DNA from: Nitrososphaerota archaeon
Lineage (GTDB): Archaea > Thermoproteota > Nitrososphaeria > Nitrososphaerales > Nitrosopumilaceae
Assembly: GCA_013288545.1 (NCBI GenBank)
Contig: JABDBR010000006.1
Location: 1,277 to 60,395, forward strand
Length of the DNA stretch: 59,119 bases
Direction: 5' to 3'
Both the position numbers and the translations under genes were made by a program. The notes under the pieces are model-generated. The model ran no database searches, was not told where the DNA came from, and saw only the letters and a list, made by a program, of their open reading frames with translations. Shown here one piece after another: positions 42,042 through 53,775 of this stretch (its first letter is position 1; each line of letters begins with the position of its first letter).

Positions 42042-42125
42042 GCGGGGGTCGCCTAGCCTGGTAGGGCGTGGGATTGCTAATCCCATGTCCGTAAGGACCC
42101 GTGGGTTCGAATCCCACTCCCCGCG
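42042..42125 (+). tRNA. tRNA-Ser (anticodon GCU)
   Basis: The acceptor stem GCGGGGG pairs with TCCCCGC (42118-42124, one G-U pair), followed by a discriminator G at 42125. The D arm is GCCTAGCCTGGTAGGGC. The anticodon stem TGGGA/TCCCA encloses the loop TTGCTAA, giving anticodon GCT at 42076-42078 (GCU in RNA, reading AGC and AGU codons). A variable arm (TGTCCGTAAGGACC region) makes it class II, as expected for tRNA-Ser. The T arm is GTGGGTTCGAATCCCAC (42101-42117). CCA is not encoded. Confidence 0.95.
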
Positions 42126-42227
42126 CTTTTACCTGTGATAATGCTGAACAAAATTTTGAATCTAGGCGTATCTGTATTTTTTTGGAACATACAACCCTTC
42201 ATACCTTTTTAGCAATTAATCTAAGTC

Positions 42228-46371: not shown

Positions 46372-47742
46372 TTGGTAGACAAACAATTCGTCTTAAATGA
46401 CATAATTTGTACTGATAGCAAAAAGCTAAGTGATCATGTAAAACCTGAAAGCGTAGCTTTGACCATAACCTCTCCACCGTATAGAAATGCAATAGATTAT
46501 TCTAGACATGTGAAAAATATTGCACGCAATGAACAGGCTCATTTTAGAGGTGAACTTGAACTAAAGACGAAGGCATATCTTGATGAAATGGAACAGATCT
46601 TTTCCGAGGTTCATAAGGTCACCATTAAAGGCGGCTTTTGTTGCATAATTATAGGTGATGAAATAGATAATGGGAAATTGATTCCACTTTCTAGCCTCTT
46701 AATTTCGAGACTGGTGAAAGAAGAAAATTCTGAAGATGGTTGGCATCTGAGAGATATGATTATTTGGAATAAGGTTACCGCTGGTAGAAATGGTGCAGGT
46801 AACCGATTTGGAATATTCATACAACATCCTATTCCCACTTATTACCGAAGCAACATAATGCACGAATACATCATAGTATTACAAAAAGGCACTCAAAAGA
46901 GGGAATTAGACAGAACTCTTGCTGATAGATTACCTCTTAATCGTGCAATGAAACGTCAGGTCTCTCTTTCAATCTGGGATATTACACCTGTCCCTCCACG
47001 AGTTGTTAAACATCCAGCTGTATTTCCAGAACAAATACCTTGGAGACTTATCAATCTGTATTCACTTCCAGGTGATACCATTCTTGATCCTATGAATGGA
47101 AGTGGACAAACAACCAAAATTGCAAAACAACTTGGACGTAATTACATTGGTATAGACAAAAGAAAAGAATACGTTGCACTAGCCAAGCAGAGACTAAGTT
47201 CACCATTCATGCTTTCTAATTTCATGGTTCCAATCTATATGCCCATAGAATGGTCATCACATGAAGAATCTGGTAAGAAAGACGACGCAGCATTAGATAT
47301 TTCTAATATTCCTAAAGGTTACGAACTTGTATTTCAGAGCAAGTCTTCAAAAGAAGTACTTGGTGTTCGGGGAACCTATCTGTACTACAAAAATAATGAT
47401 GGTGATTATCTATGTTATATTATAGCTAGAAGTGAAAACCCCACCAGAATAAAACTTGGTAAACTCTCGAATCCAAAATCACCGCTACAAATTGTTCTAA
47501 ATCAAATTCCAAATAAGCCATTTCATAAGGCTGATCTAAATGAATCATTACCGCCGAGATTGGTTGAAAATAGACAACCAATCAAAGCAGTAATTGATGT
47601 GTTAGAGTATGAAGGATTTCTAAGGAAAACTGGTAAAAAAACTGGATCTGCAGAAGAATATGAAAAAGTTATTCCTAAAAAATCTGCAGAAATGATAAAG
47701 AGATCTAAAATATTATCAGTAGAAAAAATTATAAAAAAATGA
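46372..47742 (+). CDS. Beta-class DNA methyltransferase (TSPPY type)
   Basis: 456-residue DNA amino-methyltransferase, starting with TTG at 46372. The catalytic motif TSPPY is at residues 33-37 and precedes the SAM motif DPMNGSGQTT at about 239-248. This order (motif IV before I) is the beta class, whose S-P-P-Y members are mainly N4-cytosine and some N6-adenine methylases. A middle region (IWDITPVPPRVVKHPAVFPEQIPWRLINLYS, in parts) fits. The C-terminal 170 residues, with KSSKEVLGVRGTYLYYKN and a possible winged helix (AVIDVLEYEGFLRKTGK), may bind the target or regulate. No restriction endonuclease is next to it. The target sequence cannot be read. Confidence 0.88.
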   Translation: MVDKQFVLNDIICTDSKKLSDHVKPESVALTITSPPYRNAIDYSRHVKNIARNEQAHFRGELELKTKAYLDEMEQIFSEVHKVTIKGGFCCIIIGDEIDNGKLIPLSSLLISRLVKEENSEDGWHLRDMIIWNKVTAGRNGAGNRFGIFIQHPIPTYYRSNIMHEYIIVLQKGTQKRELDRTLADRLPLNRAMKRQVSLSIWDITPVPPRVVKHPAVFPEQIPWRLINLYSLPGDTILDPMNGSGQTTKIAKQLGRNYIGIDKRKEYVALAKQRLSSPFMLSNFMVPIYMPIEWSSHEESGKKDDAALDISNIPKGYELVFQSKSSKEVLGVRGTYLYYKNNDGDYLCYIIARSENPTRIKLGKLSNPKSPLQIVLNQIPNKPFHKADLNESLPPRLVENRQPIKAVIDVLEYEGFLRKTGKKTGSAEEYEKVIPKKSAEMIKRSKILSVEKIIKK

Positions 47743-47775
47743 AACTGTTGAAATATTGTTATCAACCTATGTATC

Positions 47776-48369
47776 ATGAATGATCTTAATCTTATTATTC
47801 TACAACCTCCGTCAGATAGATCTAAACAGTTCCAAAACTATTGTATGGATAATAATTACTCAAAGGAAGAATTTACTTCATATTTAGAATTTCTTAAATA
47901 TATTCTTGCCAAATTATTTCATCTTGCCAAAAATGATAGTTTATGTTGTTTGCTTTTCCCAAAGACTCTAACCTCCAATGATAAACTAACTTATGCTCAC
48001 ATAGTTTCTGCAGGTACTTCTAGTTATACATGGGGATTAAATGATGAAATAATCTTAATGAATGAACAAAAGAAATCATTGGGAAAAATAGCCATATTGA
48101 AAAAAAATGATTTGGTAGAAACTATTAGCAGGGCGGAAAGACTCACACACATATCCATTCCACAAGAGGAAAAAGAATTCATATTTGAATCTGTATGGGT
48201 CATTGATTCTCTCAAGGGAGATCTAATGGATGAAAAAGTTGTTAGATGGTTGATACTTTCTTACTCTAATCCTATGGGAGAAATTCATGATCCATTTCCA
48301 GAGTTCACTAATTCCAAGAAAATTTGTTTGACGCTGGGTAGAATTTTTTTAGAATCTATCAATACATGA
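47776..48369 (+). CDS. Likely catalytically dead methyltransferase relative
   Basis: 197-residue protein. Read against the neighbour, its parts line up in order: LNLIILQPPSDRSK at residues 4-17, where the active enzyme has TSPPY but here has PPS; then YLEFLKYILAKLFHLAKNDSLCCLLFP, the helix and strand after motif IV. VWVIDSL, then LILSYSNPMGEIHDPFPEF near 155-173, correspond to the region before and at the SAM motif, but the glycine-rich DPxxGSG is replaced by DPFPEF. Both key motifs are therefore damaged while the scaffold looks kept. It probably cannot methylate and may act as a partner or regulator. It follows the methylase by 33 bases on the same strand. Confidence 0.6.
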   Translation: MNDLNLIILQPPSDRSKQFQNYCMDNNYSKEEFTSYLEFLKYILAKLFHLAKNDSLCCLLFPKTLTSNDKLTYAHIVSAGTSSYTWGLNDEIILMNEQKKSLGKIAILKKNDLVETISRAERLTHISIPQEEKEFIFESVWVIDSLKGDLMDEKVVRWLILSYSNPMGEIHDPFPEFTNSKKICLTLGRIFLESINT

Positions 48370-48587: not shown

Positions 48588-49721
48588 TTGATGAATACTC
48601 TTTTTCTAAAGTTCAGGATTAGTCTAGAAAATCATAACATAGATTTTAGCCCCAAAGGTCCACTCACCCATAGATGGATGCCAAATGGTGAATCGGATTC
48701 TATTAATTTGAATGTGGGAAATTCTGATTATAATCTACAAGCTTGGTTTGAACGACATGGCGTTGTAAGTGGTGGTATGATTGAATTTGATTATAAAGAA
48801 AAGAAAGTTGATCCAACTATCATTCCAAGACAAGGAATTTTAGAAATTGGTCCTTTGTATTGTTTGTTAGAAATTAAAGATGTCTCAGATGATGAATTAA
48901 ATGCCGTTAGAGACAATAAAATTGGAGATCCTAATTATATGACTCTTGGTAAGAGAGTAATCGGTGTAATACAACCTCCAATTTCAAACTTCTTGAGAAT
49001 ATTAAGAATACAATATGGACAATATTGGTTACGAGAATTATTTCCTTTTGATTCGAGATTTCATTCTCTAGGAAGTTATTGTGGAAGTCTTAGATTACTA
49101 TGGAGTATAGATAAGACAAACTGGTCAGAGTTTACACCTGATCAACAGGTTATACGTATGACAAGCAACATCATACGAGATCATGCTAGTTTTAGTAATT
49201 ATATTAATGAAGAAGACTGGAATGAAATAAAATCGAAAATAAAAGCAGAATATTCTCCTTCTTATGTAATGATATTGCTAATACAATCTTGGGAACACTA
49301 TGATCAGAAAAATACAAAATATGCAATTTTAGACGGTGTTACCGCATTAGAGTTAGCAATAGATGAATTACTTCGGAGTGCACTTGGAAAAATGAATATT
49401 CAGTTTACAAAGATTGATGATTTCAATACTACCCAGAGTTTGCCTGTCAAAACAATGTTAGTCACAGCATTAAAAGGAAATATCAAATCTGAAGAAATTA
49501 CTGATACCCTAGAAACGATCAAAATTAGAAATGACATAGTCCATGAAGGAAAAAACCCTCCTGATGACGCTGGTAACAGACTAAGAGGATTGATAAACAC
49601 AGTATCAAAGATGATGGAAAATAGAGAATTTAGATTTCCCAAAGCGAATCGTGGTAATGCAATACAGGATGTTGCAGAATGGGAAAAACTAAAAGCAGAA
49701 TATCTCGCATCAAAAAAATGA
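48588..49721 (+). CDS. HEPN-domain protein, putative ribonuclease
   Basis: 377-residue soluble protein. Near the C-terminus, RNDIVH (residues about 313-318) matches the HEPN motif Rx4-6H, set after a helical stretch with ALELAIDELL. HEPN proteins are often RNases that cut RNA in antiviral and toxin systems. The N-terminal 200 residues are beta-rich and unrecognised (WFERHGVVSGGMIEFDYKEK). It overlaps the next gene by 4 bases (ATGA), so the HEPN protein and a membrane protein are made together. The RNase call is by motif only. Confidence 0.7.
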   Translation: MMNTLFLKFRISLENHNIDFSPKGPLTHRWMPNGESDSINLNVGNSDYNLQAWFERHGVVSGGMIEFDYKEKKVDPTIIPRQGILEIGPLYCLLEIKDVSDDELNAVRDNKIGDPNYMTLGKRVIGVIQPPISNFLRILRIQYGQYWLRELFPFDSRFHSLGSYCGSLRLLWSIDKTNWSEFTPDQQVIRMTSNIIRDHASFSNYINEEDWNEIKSKIKAEYSPSYVMILLIQSWEHYDQKNTKYAILDGVTALELAIDELLRSALGKMNIQFTKIDDFNTTQSLPVKTMLVTALKGNIKSEEITDTLETIKIRNDIVHEGKNPPDDAGNRLRGLINTVSKMMENREFRFPKANRGNAIQDVAEWEKLKAEYLASKK

Positions 49722-50486: not shown

Positions 50487-51509
50487 ATGATAATCATGAT
50501 GAAAATTACACCTGATATGTACAAGTCTGCAATGGAATTAGTGAATCTTGGCAAATACAGTTCGTTAGAACATTTTACAGAATTAGCTTTTCGAAATCAA
50601 CTGATATTAGAAAATGATACTCAAGAAAGTTCAATTCATGTTTTGGATAATGCCAAATTAACTACTCATAATGAATCATCTACCGGATATTTACCACGAA
50701 CAATTAACCCAATTCCATTGAGTAAAGAGCGTCGTGAAAAACCCCTGTGGGGTCTTATCAATAGATTTGCTCCTGGTAAGCTTGTTTTACGAATGTTGGC
50801 TAGTGGGTTAGAATCTTCAACAACTGAATGGATTAACTATAAAGAATTTGCAGCTGGTGTAGTTGAACGTGCAATAAGTATGAGAAATCAAATAGAGAAA
50901 CATTACAAAAATTCACAAATTGTTCGAGGTGAGGGCCTCCAAATTGGTTTTCCTCAAAAAGATGAAAATAGTCGTCAACGATTCGCTGACATATACATTG
51001 GAAGACTCAGATCAGACGGTAGAATAGATGGTTTTCTAGGAAGTTTAGAACTAGGAGTAATAAGAAAAGCATCTGATGGAAGTTTGCAGATTGGAATAAC
51101 AGAAGCTGGTCTAAAGTTAGCTAATCTGAAATCTCCCTTATTAGATGAATTTTTTACAGTAGAACATCCGATTGCATTTTCTAAAAATGAAATTCGCTTT
51201 CTTATGAATCACGTGAAAAAAATAAGACCTGGAGAATATCAGTTTCTTGATTATCTTTTTACTTCAGTCAAGAGTGGTATGAATACTCCACAAGAGATTG
51301 GTAACCAAGTTGCAGATTATGTTAAAAAAAATAAATGGACAAATTCTCATGGGGGAAATATTTCAGAAGCAGAATTGAATACAATGAAGGTTGGAGGAAT
51401 GGCAAGACTCGTGGAGATGAGGCTAATAAGAATTGAAAAGGATGGTATACATACAAAATATCAAGCTAGTTCAGAACTTGATAATTTGGAGGGTTTGTTA
51501 AATGAATGA
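50487..51509 (+). CDS. DNA-binding-type protein coupled to the GHKL ATPase
   Basis: 340-residue protein. The N-terminal 45 residues (MMKITPDMYKSAMELVNLGKYSSLEHFTELAF, in parts) follow the ribbon-helix-helix pattern of antitoxin-type DNA-binding proteins. The middle and C-terminal parts contain winged-helix-like stretches (LGVIRKASDGSLQIGITEAGLKLA, then MARLVEMRLIRIEKDGIH). It overlaps the ATPase gene by 8 bases and probably forms a complex with or regulates it. The domain calls are motif-level guesses and no family is recognised. Confidence 0.6.
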   Translation: MIIMMKITPDMYKSAMELVNLGKYSSLEHFTELAFRNQLILENDTQESSIHVLDNAKLTTHNESSTGYLPRTINPIPLSKERREKPLWGLINRFAPGKLVLRMLASGLESSTTEWINYKEFAAGVVERAISMRNQIEKHYKNSQIVRGEGLQIGFPQKDENSRQRFADIYIGRLRSDGRIDGFLGSLELGVIRKASDGSLQIGITEAGLKLANLKSPLLDEFFTVEHPIAFSKNEIRFLMNHVKKIRPGEYQFLDYLFTSVKSGMNTPQEIGNQVADYVKKNKWTNSHGGNISEAELNTMKVGGMARLVEMRLIRIEKDGIHTKYQASSELDNLEGLLNE

Positions 51510-53775
51510 ACAAGAAATTCTAATTAAATTTCTGGAAGCAAAAACAAGCTTGGATATTGAAGCATTAGTCCAAGGAATAAGAGAAGAATTTGGGGATAGA
51601 ATAAAGACAAAACCAATTGGTCATGATAATAATAGGGGACAAATTGAAGTTGGAACTGATCCTGGAAAAAGTATTGTTGAAAGAATAACAAATGGAATTG
51701 ATGCTGTTTTGGAATTAGAACATAACAGGCATCATGGAATTCCTACATGTTCTAACCCTCGTGAAGCTGCATCATCATGGTTGGGTGTTCCTAAAAAGGG
51801 GCTACATGTACTTAGTATTGCGAAGAGGCAAGAACTGGCAAAGGATATCGTTGTGACAGTAGAAAATGGCGATGGTAAACATCATAGAACCGTATCAATC
51901 AAAGATTTAGGATTAGGCATTACTGCTGATAAAATATCTTCAACTATTCTTAGTCTTGGTGAAAGTAATAAACTGCAAAAATTGTATCTTGCAGGTGCAT
52001 TTGGTCAAGGTGGCTCAAGTACATTTGCTAATTGTAAATATTCTTTCATTTGTAGTAGATTTAATTCAGAGTCTCCTCAGAACAATAAAGTTAGTTTTAC
52101 TATAGTGTTTTTTGAAGATCTTCCCGCAGACCAATATAAGCATGGTCATTATGTTTACCTGACCTTAGATAACCGACTCTTCGAAGCAGATGTTCCATTA
52201 GAAATTTTTAACGAAGGTACACTTGTACGACATTATGCTTATGATTTAACCAATTATGGAGCTTCTTTTGGTCCTGCGAGTATGTATGGATTATTGCAAC
52301 GTGTTTTATTTGATCCAGTAGTTCCAATATATCTTGAAGACAAAGTACATGATTTTAGAAGGGTCATCAAGGGAGTTAGAAATGCTCTTAATGGAGCAAT
52401 TGATGAACCCGAGGAAAGAGGTCCAGCAATACGTCATAGCCTTCCATTATTTTATGTTCCAATAGGGGAATTTGGAAATATCGGAATTGAGTATTGGGTT
52501 CTAGAAGAAGTAAAAGGACCCAAACCTATAATGGCTTTTGTTGATAACAAACGTCCTATACTTTTGACTGTAAATGGTCAAACACATGGAGAATGGTCTG
52601 ATAACATCATTAGAAATCAACTCGAAATTCCGTTTCTAAGAAATAGAATCATAATTCATTTAGATTGTAATGAGATTTCTCCTATTGGTAAGCGGAATTT
52701 ATTTAGCTCAGGAAGGGAAGATACCAGAAAAGGTGAGGTCAGCAAATTAGTAGAGCAGGAACTTATCAAGGCACTTGATGCAGATGATGAATTAAAAATC
52801 ATTAATGAAGAAGTTAAAAATCTTACTCTGACTAAGGGAGATGATGAAACAGAAAAGATCATCAGAGGTGAGATCGCTAAAGTTCTAAAGATTCATGGAT
52901 ATTCTACTACAAGTATTTCTACCGCAGGTGAAATAGGTCAATCTACTTCAGTATCTGATGAAATTTTACTTCCTATCGGTAAATCTCATCATAACAAAAT
53001 TTCAAAGAAGATCAATATTCAAGATCCACCTACATTTGTCAATATACTTGCTAACTCGCCTATTGAGTTTTATCCGGAACAAAGAAGATATGTTAGAATT
53101 GAAACTGATGCACCCACATCTTATCATAATTCTGAAGATTTTACAAAAAGTAAAGTTAACATCATTTTAAGCGGATCAGACATTAAGTTAGCAGGAAGTA
53201 CTTCTTTGAAGGAAGGTAGAATGAGAATTATCCTAGACTGTATGAAAACATCATCTATTGGTTCTATTGGTGATTTTATTATTGAAATATCTAGACCTGG
53301 AATGATTTCTATATCTAATAAAATTTCTTATAAAATAGTTCAAAGACCCGAATCTTCTCCAAGTAAAAAGAGTGTTTCAATACCAAAAATGAAATTTGAA
53401 CCAGTAAATGGCCCAGACGATCCTAATTGGGAGTTGCAAGAATGGCCATCAGGTATTACGATGGTGGCATCATCTTCAGAACTTAGTACTGAGCTTATTT
53501 TGTATTATTCTACTGTTTTCCCTCCTTATGCAAACGCAAAAAGACAATTTGAAAAATCTAACCCGGTACTTGCTACATCATTCGATACAAGATATAGGAT
53601 CTGGTTAGCAGTTCATTCTCTTTTGTTAGATGAAGACAAAAAGAAATCTGAAAACCCAACAGGATTCGAACAATGGGAGCAAATTGAAAGATGTAGATTA
53701 GCAACTATTGCCTCTATGATTGCAGATAAGGAGGTTCGTCTTTCAATGAAGGAATCAGTTCAAGAAATAGAATAA
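51502..53775 (+). CDS. GHKL (MutL/Hsp90/MORC-like) ATPase
   Basis: 757-residue ATPase. The N box reads VERITNGIDAVLE (Glu60, Asn64, Asp67), the G1 box DLGLGIT (residues 135-141) and the G2 box GAFGQGGSST (165-174). These are the GHKL fold motifs shared by MutL, Hsp90, gyrase B and MORC. The middle has a conserved-looking RNLFSSGREDTRKGEVSKL, and the C-terminal 250 residues are beta-rich, then helical (IWLAVHSLLLDEDKKK). MORC- and MutL-like ATPases have been described near prokaryotic restriction-modification genes. Here a methylase is 4 kb upstream. The start overlaps the partner gene by 8 bases. Confidence 0.82.
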   Translation: MNEQEILIKFLEAKTSLDIEALVQGIREEFGDRIKTKPIGHDNNRGQIEVGTDPGKSIVERITNGIDAVLELEHNRHHGIPTCSNPREAASSWLGVPKKGLHVLSIAKRQELAKDIVVTVENGDGKHHRTVSIKDLGLGITADKISSTILSLGESNKLQKLYLAGAFGQGGSSTFANCKYSFICSRFNSESPQNNKVSFTIVFFEDLPADQYKHGHYVYLTLDNRLFEADVPLEIFNEGTLVRHYAYDLTNYGASFGPASMYGLLQRVLFDPVVPIYLEDKVHDFRRVIKGVRNALNGAIDEPEERGPAIRHSLPLFYVPIGEFGNIGIEYWVLEEVKGPKPIMAFVDNKRPILLTVNGQTHGEWSDNIIRNQLEIPFLRNRIIIHLDCNEISPIGKRNLFSSGREDTRKGEVSKLVEQELIKALDADDELKIINEEVKNLTLTKGDDETEKIIRGEIAKVLKIHGYSTTSISTAGEIGQSTSVSDEILLPIGKSHHNKISKKINIQDPPTFVNILANSPIEFYPEQRRYVRIETDAPTSYHNSEDFTKSKVNIILSGSDIKLAGSTSLKEGRMRIILDCMKTSSIGSIGDFIIEISRPGMISISNKISYKIVQRPESSPSKKSVSIPKMKFEPVNGPDDPNWELQEWPSGITMVASSSELSTELILYYSTVFPPYANAKRQFEKSNPVLATSFDTRYRIWLAVHSLLLDEDKKKSENPTGFEQWEQIERCRLATIASMIADKEVRLSMKESVQEIE

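Follow-up and report, generated by a model that had tools for sequence, protein, structure and literature searches.

Pairs of an active and a dead methyltransferase are a hallmark of the eukaryotic m6A and 6mA writers. In the genome studied here, an archaeon of the Nitrosopumilaceae, a stretch of 59,119 nucleotides (the whole stretch analysed, hereafter the window) holds the gene of an intact beta-class DNA methyltransferase directly followed by a shorter gene, the product of which was described in the initial annotation as a relative of its neighbour that has lost the active site. This raises the question whether the shorter gene codes for a partner of the intact enzyme, as gene order and spacing had been taken to suggest, or rather for a decaying remnant, a regulator or an enzyme that is still active in spite of unusual motifs.

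Results

Gene pair and motif loss

The upstream gene (46372..47742, forward strand, TTG start) codes for P0001, an intact beta-class DNA methyltransferase of 456 aa. Its catalytic domain (residues about 1-280), which carries TSPPY and DPMNGSG, accounts for the match with Pfam N6_N4_Mtase (E=2.9e-37, residues 28-273), and is followed by a C-terminal domain of ~165 residues (about 290-456) with no family name; PADLOC MTase_II matched P0001 at E=1.3e-63. The downstream gene (47776..48369, forward strand, ATG start) codes for P0002, a degenerate beta-class methyltransferase of 197 aa, predicted to be non-catalytic. It begins 33 bases 3' of the end of the P0001 gene (gap 47743..47775, forward strand, taken from the sequence), exactly the spacing reported earlier. 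Both genes lie in the same frame with two TGA stops between them, P0001's own and one more, and reading TGA as W gives one open translation through both. The corresponding pair in genome G019 (L064:3471-5516) also shares one frame, with a single TGA between the genes. A readthrough fusion of P0001 and P0002 may be conceivable from this arrangement; the shared frame at the two loci is probably a coincidence, as one in three is expected.

Active beta-class enzymes have (D/N/S)PP(Y/F/W) as motif IV and, as SAM motifs, motif I DPFxGxG together with an acidic motif II. In alignment A6, P0002 keeps the layout of P0001 that the initial annotation had recognised, with VWVID under IWDIT, LSYSNP under LYSLPG and LGRIFL under LGRNYI, and the two replacements proposed there, PPY to PPS and DPxxGSG to DPFPEF, were confirmed: LQPPS stands under TSPPY and DPFPEF under DPMNGS (DPFPEFT under DPMNGSG). 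Ahead of the motif IV strand P0002 has no more than a few residues, its middle is shorter by about 20-30 residues and its chain ends after strand beta-2, which also costs it the motif II and motif III regions. P0002 would accordingly be a pseudo-methyltransferase that retains the beta-class core and has lost those residues of motifs IV and I by which the target base and SAM are held.

Homology and predicted fold of P0002

Against Pfam, P0002 matched PF01555 with E=0.006 and 17 bits, the gathering cut-off of 26.7 bits not being reached; at E<=1 this was the only family returned, and MT-A70 gave no match. PADLOC MTase_II matched at E=1e-5. A family profile of its three relatives introduced below (P0003, P0004 and P0006), from which P0002 itself was left out, scored P0002 at 45.2 bits, and none of 1,000 controls (the reversed sequence plus 999 shuffles) exceeded 6.7. 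Over the 233 stop-to-stop frames of the window the same profile placed P0001 first (102.7 bits), P0002 second (45.3 bits) and the third frame at 6.6 bits (E=0.053). With a profile of 27 intact relatives P0002 obtained 19.3 bits and the best control 3.4, P0002 thus being closer to the degenerate profile (45 bits) than to the intact one (19 bits). In BLAST searches with P0002 the best match was P0003 (42.4 bits), followed by P0004 (35.4), an intact enzyme (34.7) and P0006 (33.9).

The AlphaFold model of P0002 reached a pLDDT of 78.1 and a pTM of 0.79 from 12 aligned rows, among them intact relatives, which help the fold. In the PDB, Foldseek found 2zig (TTHA0409) as its best match (E=1.7e-9); the top matches were TTHA0409, RsrI, M.BceJIV, CcrM, M1.HpyAVI, MboIIA and PvuII (E 1.7e-9 to 6.8e-6), and chains of MTA1-MTA9 and METTL3-METTL14 stood lower down among the 50 matches listed. 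Phage and giant-virus DNA methyltransferases matched the model in a search of viral structures. Left-out profile, AlphaFold and Foldseek agree on a methylase relative with the beta-class fold, as had been claimed, and by the left-out profile P0002 is firmly identified as a degenerate beta-class (N6_N4_Mtase) DNA methyltransferase.

Two other origins of the gene were discarded. A chance ORF was rejected on the profile with its controls and on the six-frame codon score given below, and a truncated duplicate of P0001 was rejected since P0002 fits the degenerate profile better and the tree sets the four degenerate proteins apart from P0001, the latter argument being unsure for its long branches.

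Relatives and recurrence of the pair

The search for the same kind of pair in other archaea that had been proposed led to three further genomes, G174, G019 and G151, all of the window's family. Their degenerate proteins are P0003 (262 aa; L062:5001-5789, G174), P0004 (220 aa; L064:4854-5516, G019) and P0006 (246 aa; L063:2414-3154, G151), with Pfam N6_N4_Mtase matching P0003 at 1.8e-21 and P0004 at 8e-20. Each of the four degenerate genes has an intact neighbour of the same methyltransferase family near it (4/4), at a distance of 33 bases in the window, 6 bases in G019, about 0.9 kb in G151 and 1.8 kb in G174. In G151 and G174 the intact methyltransferase comes first and the degenerate gene last, with a gene for the C-terminal domain between them on the opposite strand; in G174 transposase-like ORFs lie there as well.

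Motif IV is altered in all four members: the SPPY columns of A6 read QPPS in P0002, VLPS in P0003, NLSY in P0004 and KPPY in P0006, and [DNST]PP[YFW] occurs in none of them. TSPPY was present in 19/19 intact enzymes (19 neighbourhoods in 18 genomes, one enzyme being cut by a contig end), and one relative in the wider 'core' clade (G213) has TSTPY. Motif I varies, with DPFPEF in P0002, DPFAGHC in P0003, DPFAGHG in P0004 and DPFSGNG in P0006, and the acidic motif II residue is found in P0006 only, being lost in P0003, while P0002 and P0004 stop before it. Loss of the SAM site is therefore graded across the family. Orthologues with PPY and DPxxGSG had been named as evidence against an inactive relative; one of the three, P0006, goes halfway with KPPY and DPFSGNG and may by its motifs be active, and the other two do not.

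At E<=1e-20 a profile search detected the degenerate family in 4 of 250 genomes of the Nitrosopumilaceae, the window's included. A draw of 400 genomes from the class (E<=1e-20) returned the window's genome, G151 and G019, and one of 398 genomes from the phylum (E<=1e-22) the window's genome and G151, neither adding a new member. In these searches the four, which are the profile's own rows, score at least 250 bits, and the other rows listed have at most 89 bits, those read being intact methyltransferases. Because strict cut-offs might hide very degenerate members, 18 neighbourhoods of intact enzymes were also searched at E<=0.01 (six of them on contigs under 13 kb, and the enzymes of G021 and G132 at a contig edge). 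Again there were no new members. A degenerate partner is present in 4 of 19 neighbourhoods, the window included and some of them cut by contig ends; the neighbourhoods covered in full, at least, show that the intact enzyme often occurs alone and does not generally need a partner. The second gene of a tandem in G239 (DLPYG) was considered as a family member and judged to be of a different, probably active type.

A viral or plasmid origin of P0002 was also considered and rejected, as no relative was found in viral contigs (four stretches, none confirmed) or in PLSDB plasmids (no match). The profile of alignment A2 confirmed none of 22 stretches in viral contigs; P0002 alone gave 61 stretches in genome contigs and P0001 alone one in viral contigs, none confirmed. 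P0006 matches 284 phage records, all below 60% identity, the 15 matches listed being mostly annotated as DNA methyltransferases.

Adjacent genes

In G174, G151 and G180 the domain that forms the C-terminus of P0001 has its own gene, read from the opposite strand (L062:3356-4003; L063:1638-2294; L012:613-1293): an unnamed domain that occurs naturally both split and fused. A nuclease-like gene of about 222 aa adjoins P0001 relatives in G174, G132, G180 and G093 (L062:5770-6441; L010:1607-2275; L012:2353-3012; L145:7009-7677); the ORF in G174 (223 aa) starts inside the end of the P0003 gene. A possible PD-(D/E)XK pattern was seen by eye (FFEE ... DYQRYYNWDLK), and the protein is a candidate for the restriction endonuclease there. 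None of the tested copies had a family in Pfam, PADLOC, NCBIfam or PHROGs, and in the PDB they reached only E 0.18-0.95. A search of the window's genome, the assembly of which is 85% complete, gave no match to this gene at E<=1.

Downstream of P0002 the genes at 48588-49721, 50487-51509 and 51502-53775 (the last on the forward strand) had no convincing family in Pfam, NCBIfam or PADLOC. The last codes for a protein of 757 aa with GHKL-ATPase-like motifs by eye (ERITNGIDA, DLGLG, GAFGQGG) and no PDB relative at E<=0.1; it could, by these motifs, belong to a defence module as a paraMORC-like component, and GHKL domains are described near restriction-modification genes (PMC8011034). A tRNA-Ser (GCT) at 42042-42126, some 3.8 kb before the ORFs from 45961 on, most of which are unnamed, possibly marks the edge of an integrated island.

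Elsewhere in the genus, 35 of the 36 other genomes have a P0001-like match at E<=1e-40, those read being 'core' enzymes with TSPPYHNA. The window's genome (assembly 85% complete) showed, besides P0001, no more than one partial match to PF01555, on C1, and P0001 might take over the role of the core enzyme there. In G174 (C2, L009:2394-3770) a DpdB/DndB-like protein (PADLOC 1.6e-19, 1.4e-4) lies 80 bases behind another close relative of P0001, so that the P0001 clade occurs with different defence modules.

Phylogeny, selection and decay

In a tree of 36 rows, hand-picked from the loci, the four degenerate proteins cluster (86/83) outside the intact clades, and a single origin appeared in 92% of 200 bootstrap trees, a grouping that long branches make unsure. 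P0002 has the longest branch (6.77 changes per site), P0004 one of 2.57. P0003 branches as the sister of P0006, and the intact neighbours of both belong to one starred group of seven; P0001 falls into a separate clade with the C-terminal domain, distinct from the 'core' enzymes.

The branch of P0002 fits the rival reading that it is a decaying remnant of the second methyltransferase in a two-methyltransferase restriction system, a copy on the way to being lost, while other members of its family may still work. It is also the shortest member (197 aa vs 220-262), with both ends trimmed and motif I destroyed, and its codon-usage score of 0.054, although the top of its six frames, lies below all 19 reference genes (0.074-0.179), on which, and not on P0002, the score was trained. 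A tandem pair with both motifs kept does occur in the family (G006: SPPY and DPPY). The window's genome yielded no copy of the nuclease-like gene that accompanies some relatives, so the system from which P0002 came may have been lost.

For the family, however, decay is no explanation, since the two relatives P0003 and P0006, at 47% identity (their intact neighbours in G174 and G151 share 88%), have a dN/dS of 0.24. The C-terminal-domain gene gave 0.16 and the intact enzymes 0.077, all by our own Nei-Gojobori script; dS was 1.83 for the degenerate pair and 1.68 for the C-terminal-domain gene, both values being near saturation, and 1.05 for the intact enzymes. Neutral simulations to 47% identity from P0003 and from P0006 left 0/200 sequences free of stops in each set, and all three relatives with altered motif IV are, like P0002, intact ORFs.

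For P0002 itself selection is only indirectly supported. Against P0003 its dN/dS is 0.56 at near-saturated dS. Its 197 codons are open, though neutral drift to 28% identity brings about 13 stops (0/60 stop-free in each of two runs), and its fold is predicted with confidence. Its profile score was reached by 3/200 neutral stop-free simulations at 28% identity with one profile and by 0/200 with another, by 80/200 and 0/200 neutral sequences at 35% and by 195/200 and 28/200 at 45%; the score thus stands above neutral expectation at 28% but not at 45% identity, and the answer depends on the divergence assumed. Taken together, we regard decay of P0002 as an unlikely explanation, though the first to be weighed against a functional partner.

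Discussion

The computations on P0002 and its family show homology, a predicted methyltransferase fold, lost motifs, repeated occurrence next to one methyltransferase family and selection on two relatives, and the presence of such pairs in three related archaea points to the inactive protein as a helper subunit. Our preferred reading, to which we give a probability of about one half, is that P0001 and P0002 together form a DNA methyltransferase, with P0002 as its non-catalytic subunit. From these data we infer that P0002 is inactive, forms a heterodimer with P0001 and has a role in DNA binding. P0001 would do the methylation chemistry, and P0002 would replace one of the two subunits of a beta-class dimer, stabilising the complex and/or helping to grip DNA, by convergence in the manner of METTL14 or MTA9. 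Folding both proteins as one chain gave a pLDDT of 49.1 and a pTM of 0.45, from a poor alignment of 6 rows, and has no bearing on pairing in either direction.

Rather improbable is the alternative that the P0002 family consists of DNA-binding regulators which lost catalysis and control the expression or activity of a restriction module. In G174 the degenerate gene and the nuclease-like ORF share up to 20 bases and may be translated together, and as precedents the methyltransferases M.EcoRII (PMC12707154) and M.SsoII (PMC6100179) are described as transcriptional repressors as well. Length and alignment, however, leave no room for an extra DNA-binding domain in any of the four, and the nuclease-like gene was found neither in the window's genome nor near the copy in G019, where the contig ends 222 bases on. 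That the family members are still-active methyltransferases with an unusual motif IV is very hard to maintain, for, although P0006 keeps PPY, DPFSGNG and the acidic motif II residue, and DLPY and TSTPY occur in the unrelated tandem methyltransferase of G239 and the core relative of G213, P0002 with QPPS, DPFPEF and nothing after beta-2 has no recognisable SAM or base motif, and the acidic residue is lost in P0003 and lies beyond the end of P0004.

If the paired reading is true, the P0002 ORF may, although below the Pfam cut-off, be needed for methylation in these archaea, which is of concern to annotators. A wider reading, tentative and somewhat short of even odds, is that Nitrosopumilaceae possess obligate heterodimeric beta-class DNA methyltransferases, a prokaryotic and DNA-directed parallel to METTL3-METTL14 and MTA1-MTA9 with an origin of its own. 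DNA grip or strand choice would in this case come from the dead paralogue, which evolves fast. Several stages of active-site loss would then be represented, from KPPY with an intact SAM motif over VLPS and NLSY to QPPS without a SAM motif. The four members with their differing loss of the active site would form a natural series, on which it can be asked whether dead subunits arise from the second active subunit of a dimer.

Comparison with known systems

With the beta-class DNA methyltransferases TTHA0409, RsrI, CcrM, M.BceJIV, M1.HpyAVI, MboIIA and PvuII, P0002 shares the fold and the motif order, but these enzymes keep motifs IV and I and are longer, and P0002 is without the two motifs. M.AquI and other split or two-subunit m5C enzymes present a different case. 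The Mod subunits of EcoP15I, a type III restriction-modification enzyme, are identical, and so both are competent. The likeness of EcoP15I Mod2 to the pair proposed here lies in the division of labour, as one Mod subunit is described as reading the DNA while the target adenine enters the other, which methylates it (PMC4490356); a helicase-like Res gene, as in the EcoP15I system, was not recognised at the window locus.

Within the lineage of the window, the Nitrosopumilales, persistent m4C methyltransferases of group HG11 with the target AGCT are described (PMC10609329). The TSPPY 'core' enzymes of the genomes compared are putative members of HG11, and P0001 differs from them in belonging to the separate clade with the C-terminal domain. 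In the portions retrieved, an inactive partner of these enzymes is not mentioned in the archaeal restriction-modification survey (PMC10609329), nor is an active/dead beta-class pair in a 2026 review of prokaryotic DNA methyltransferases (PMC13076061). Within the retrieved text of the open-access PMC literature, no prokaryotic active/inactive beta-class pair was found.

The closest likeness is to METTL3-METTL14 and MTA1-MTA9, which also join an active and a degenerate methyltransferase. METTL14 is described as non-catalytic, with EPPL in place of DPPW, and as contributing complex integrity and RNA binding, and MTA9 as having a structural role (PMC5023411; PMC9174199). As in METTL14, PP is kept and the first residue and the aromatic one are lost (DPPW to EPPL there, SPPY to QPPS here). 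At the genomic level the resemblance extends to the linkage of active and degenerate genes in 4/4 cases and to the dN/dS of 0.24 for one pair of relatives. In contrast, the eukaryotic pairs act on RNA or ApT targets and belong to the MT-A70 family, whereas the archaeal proteins belong to PF01555, and the complexes of METTL14 and MTA9 are solved, whereas that of P0001 and P0002 is a proposed one. An active/dead methyltransferase pair is of a known kind, and the beta-class DNA methyltransferases of archaea are a new setting for it.
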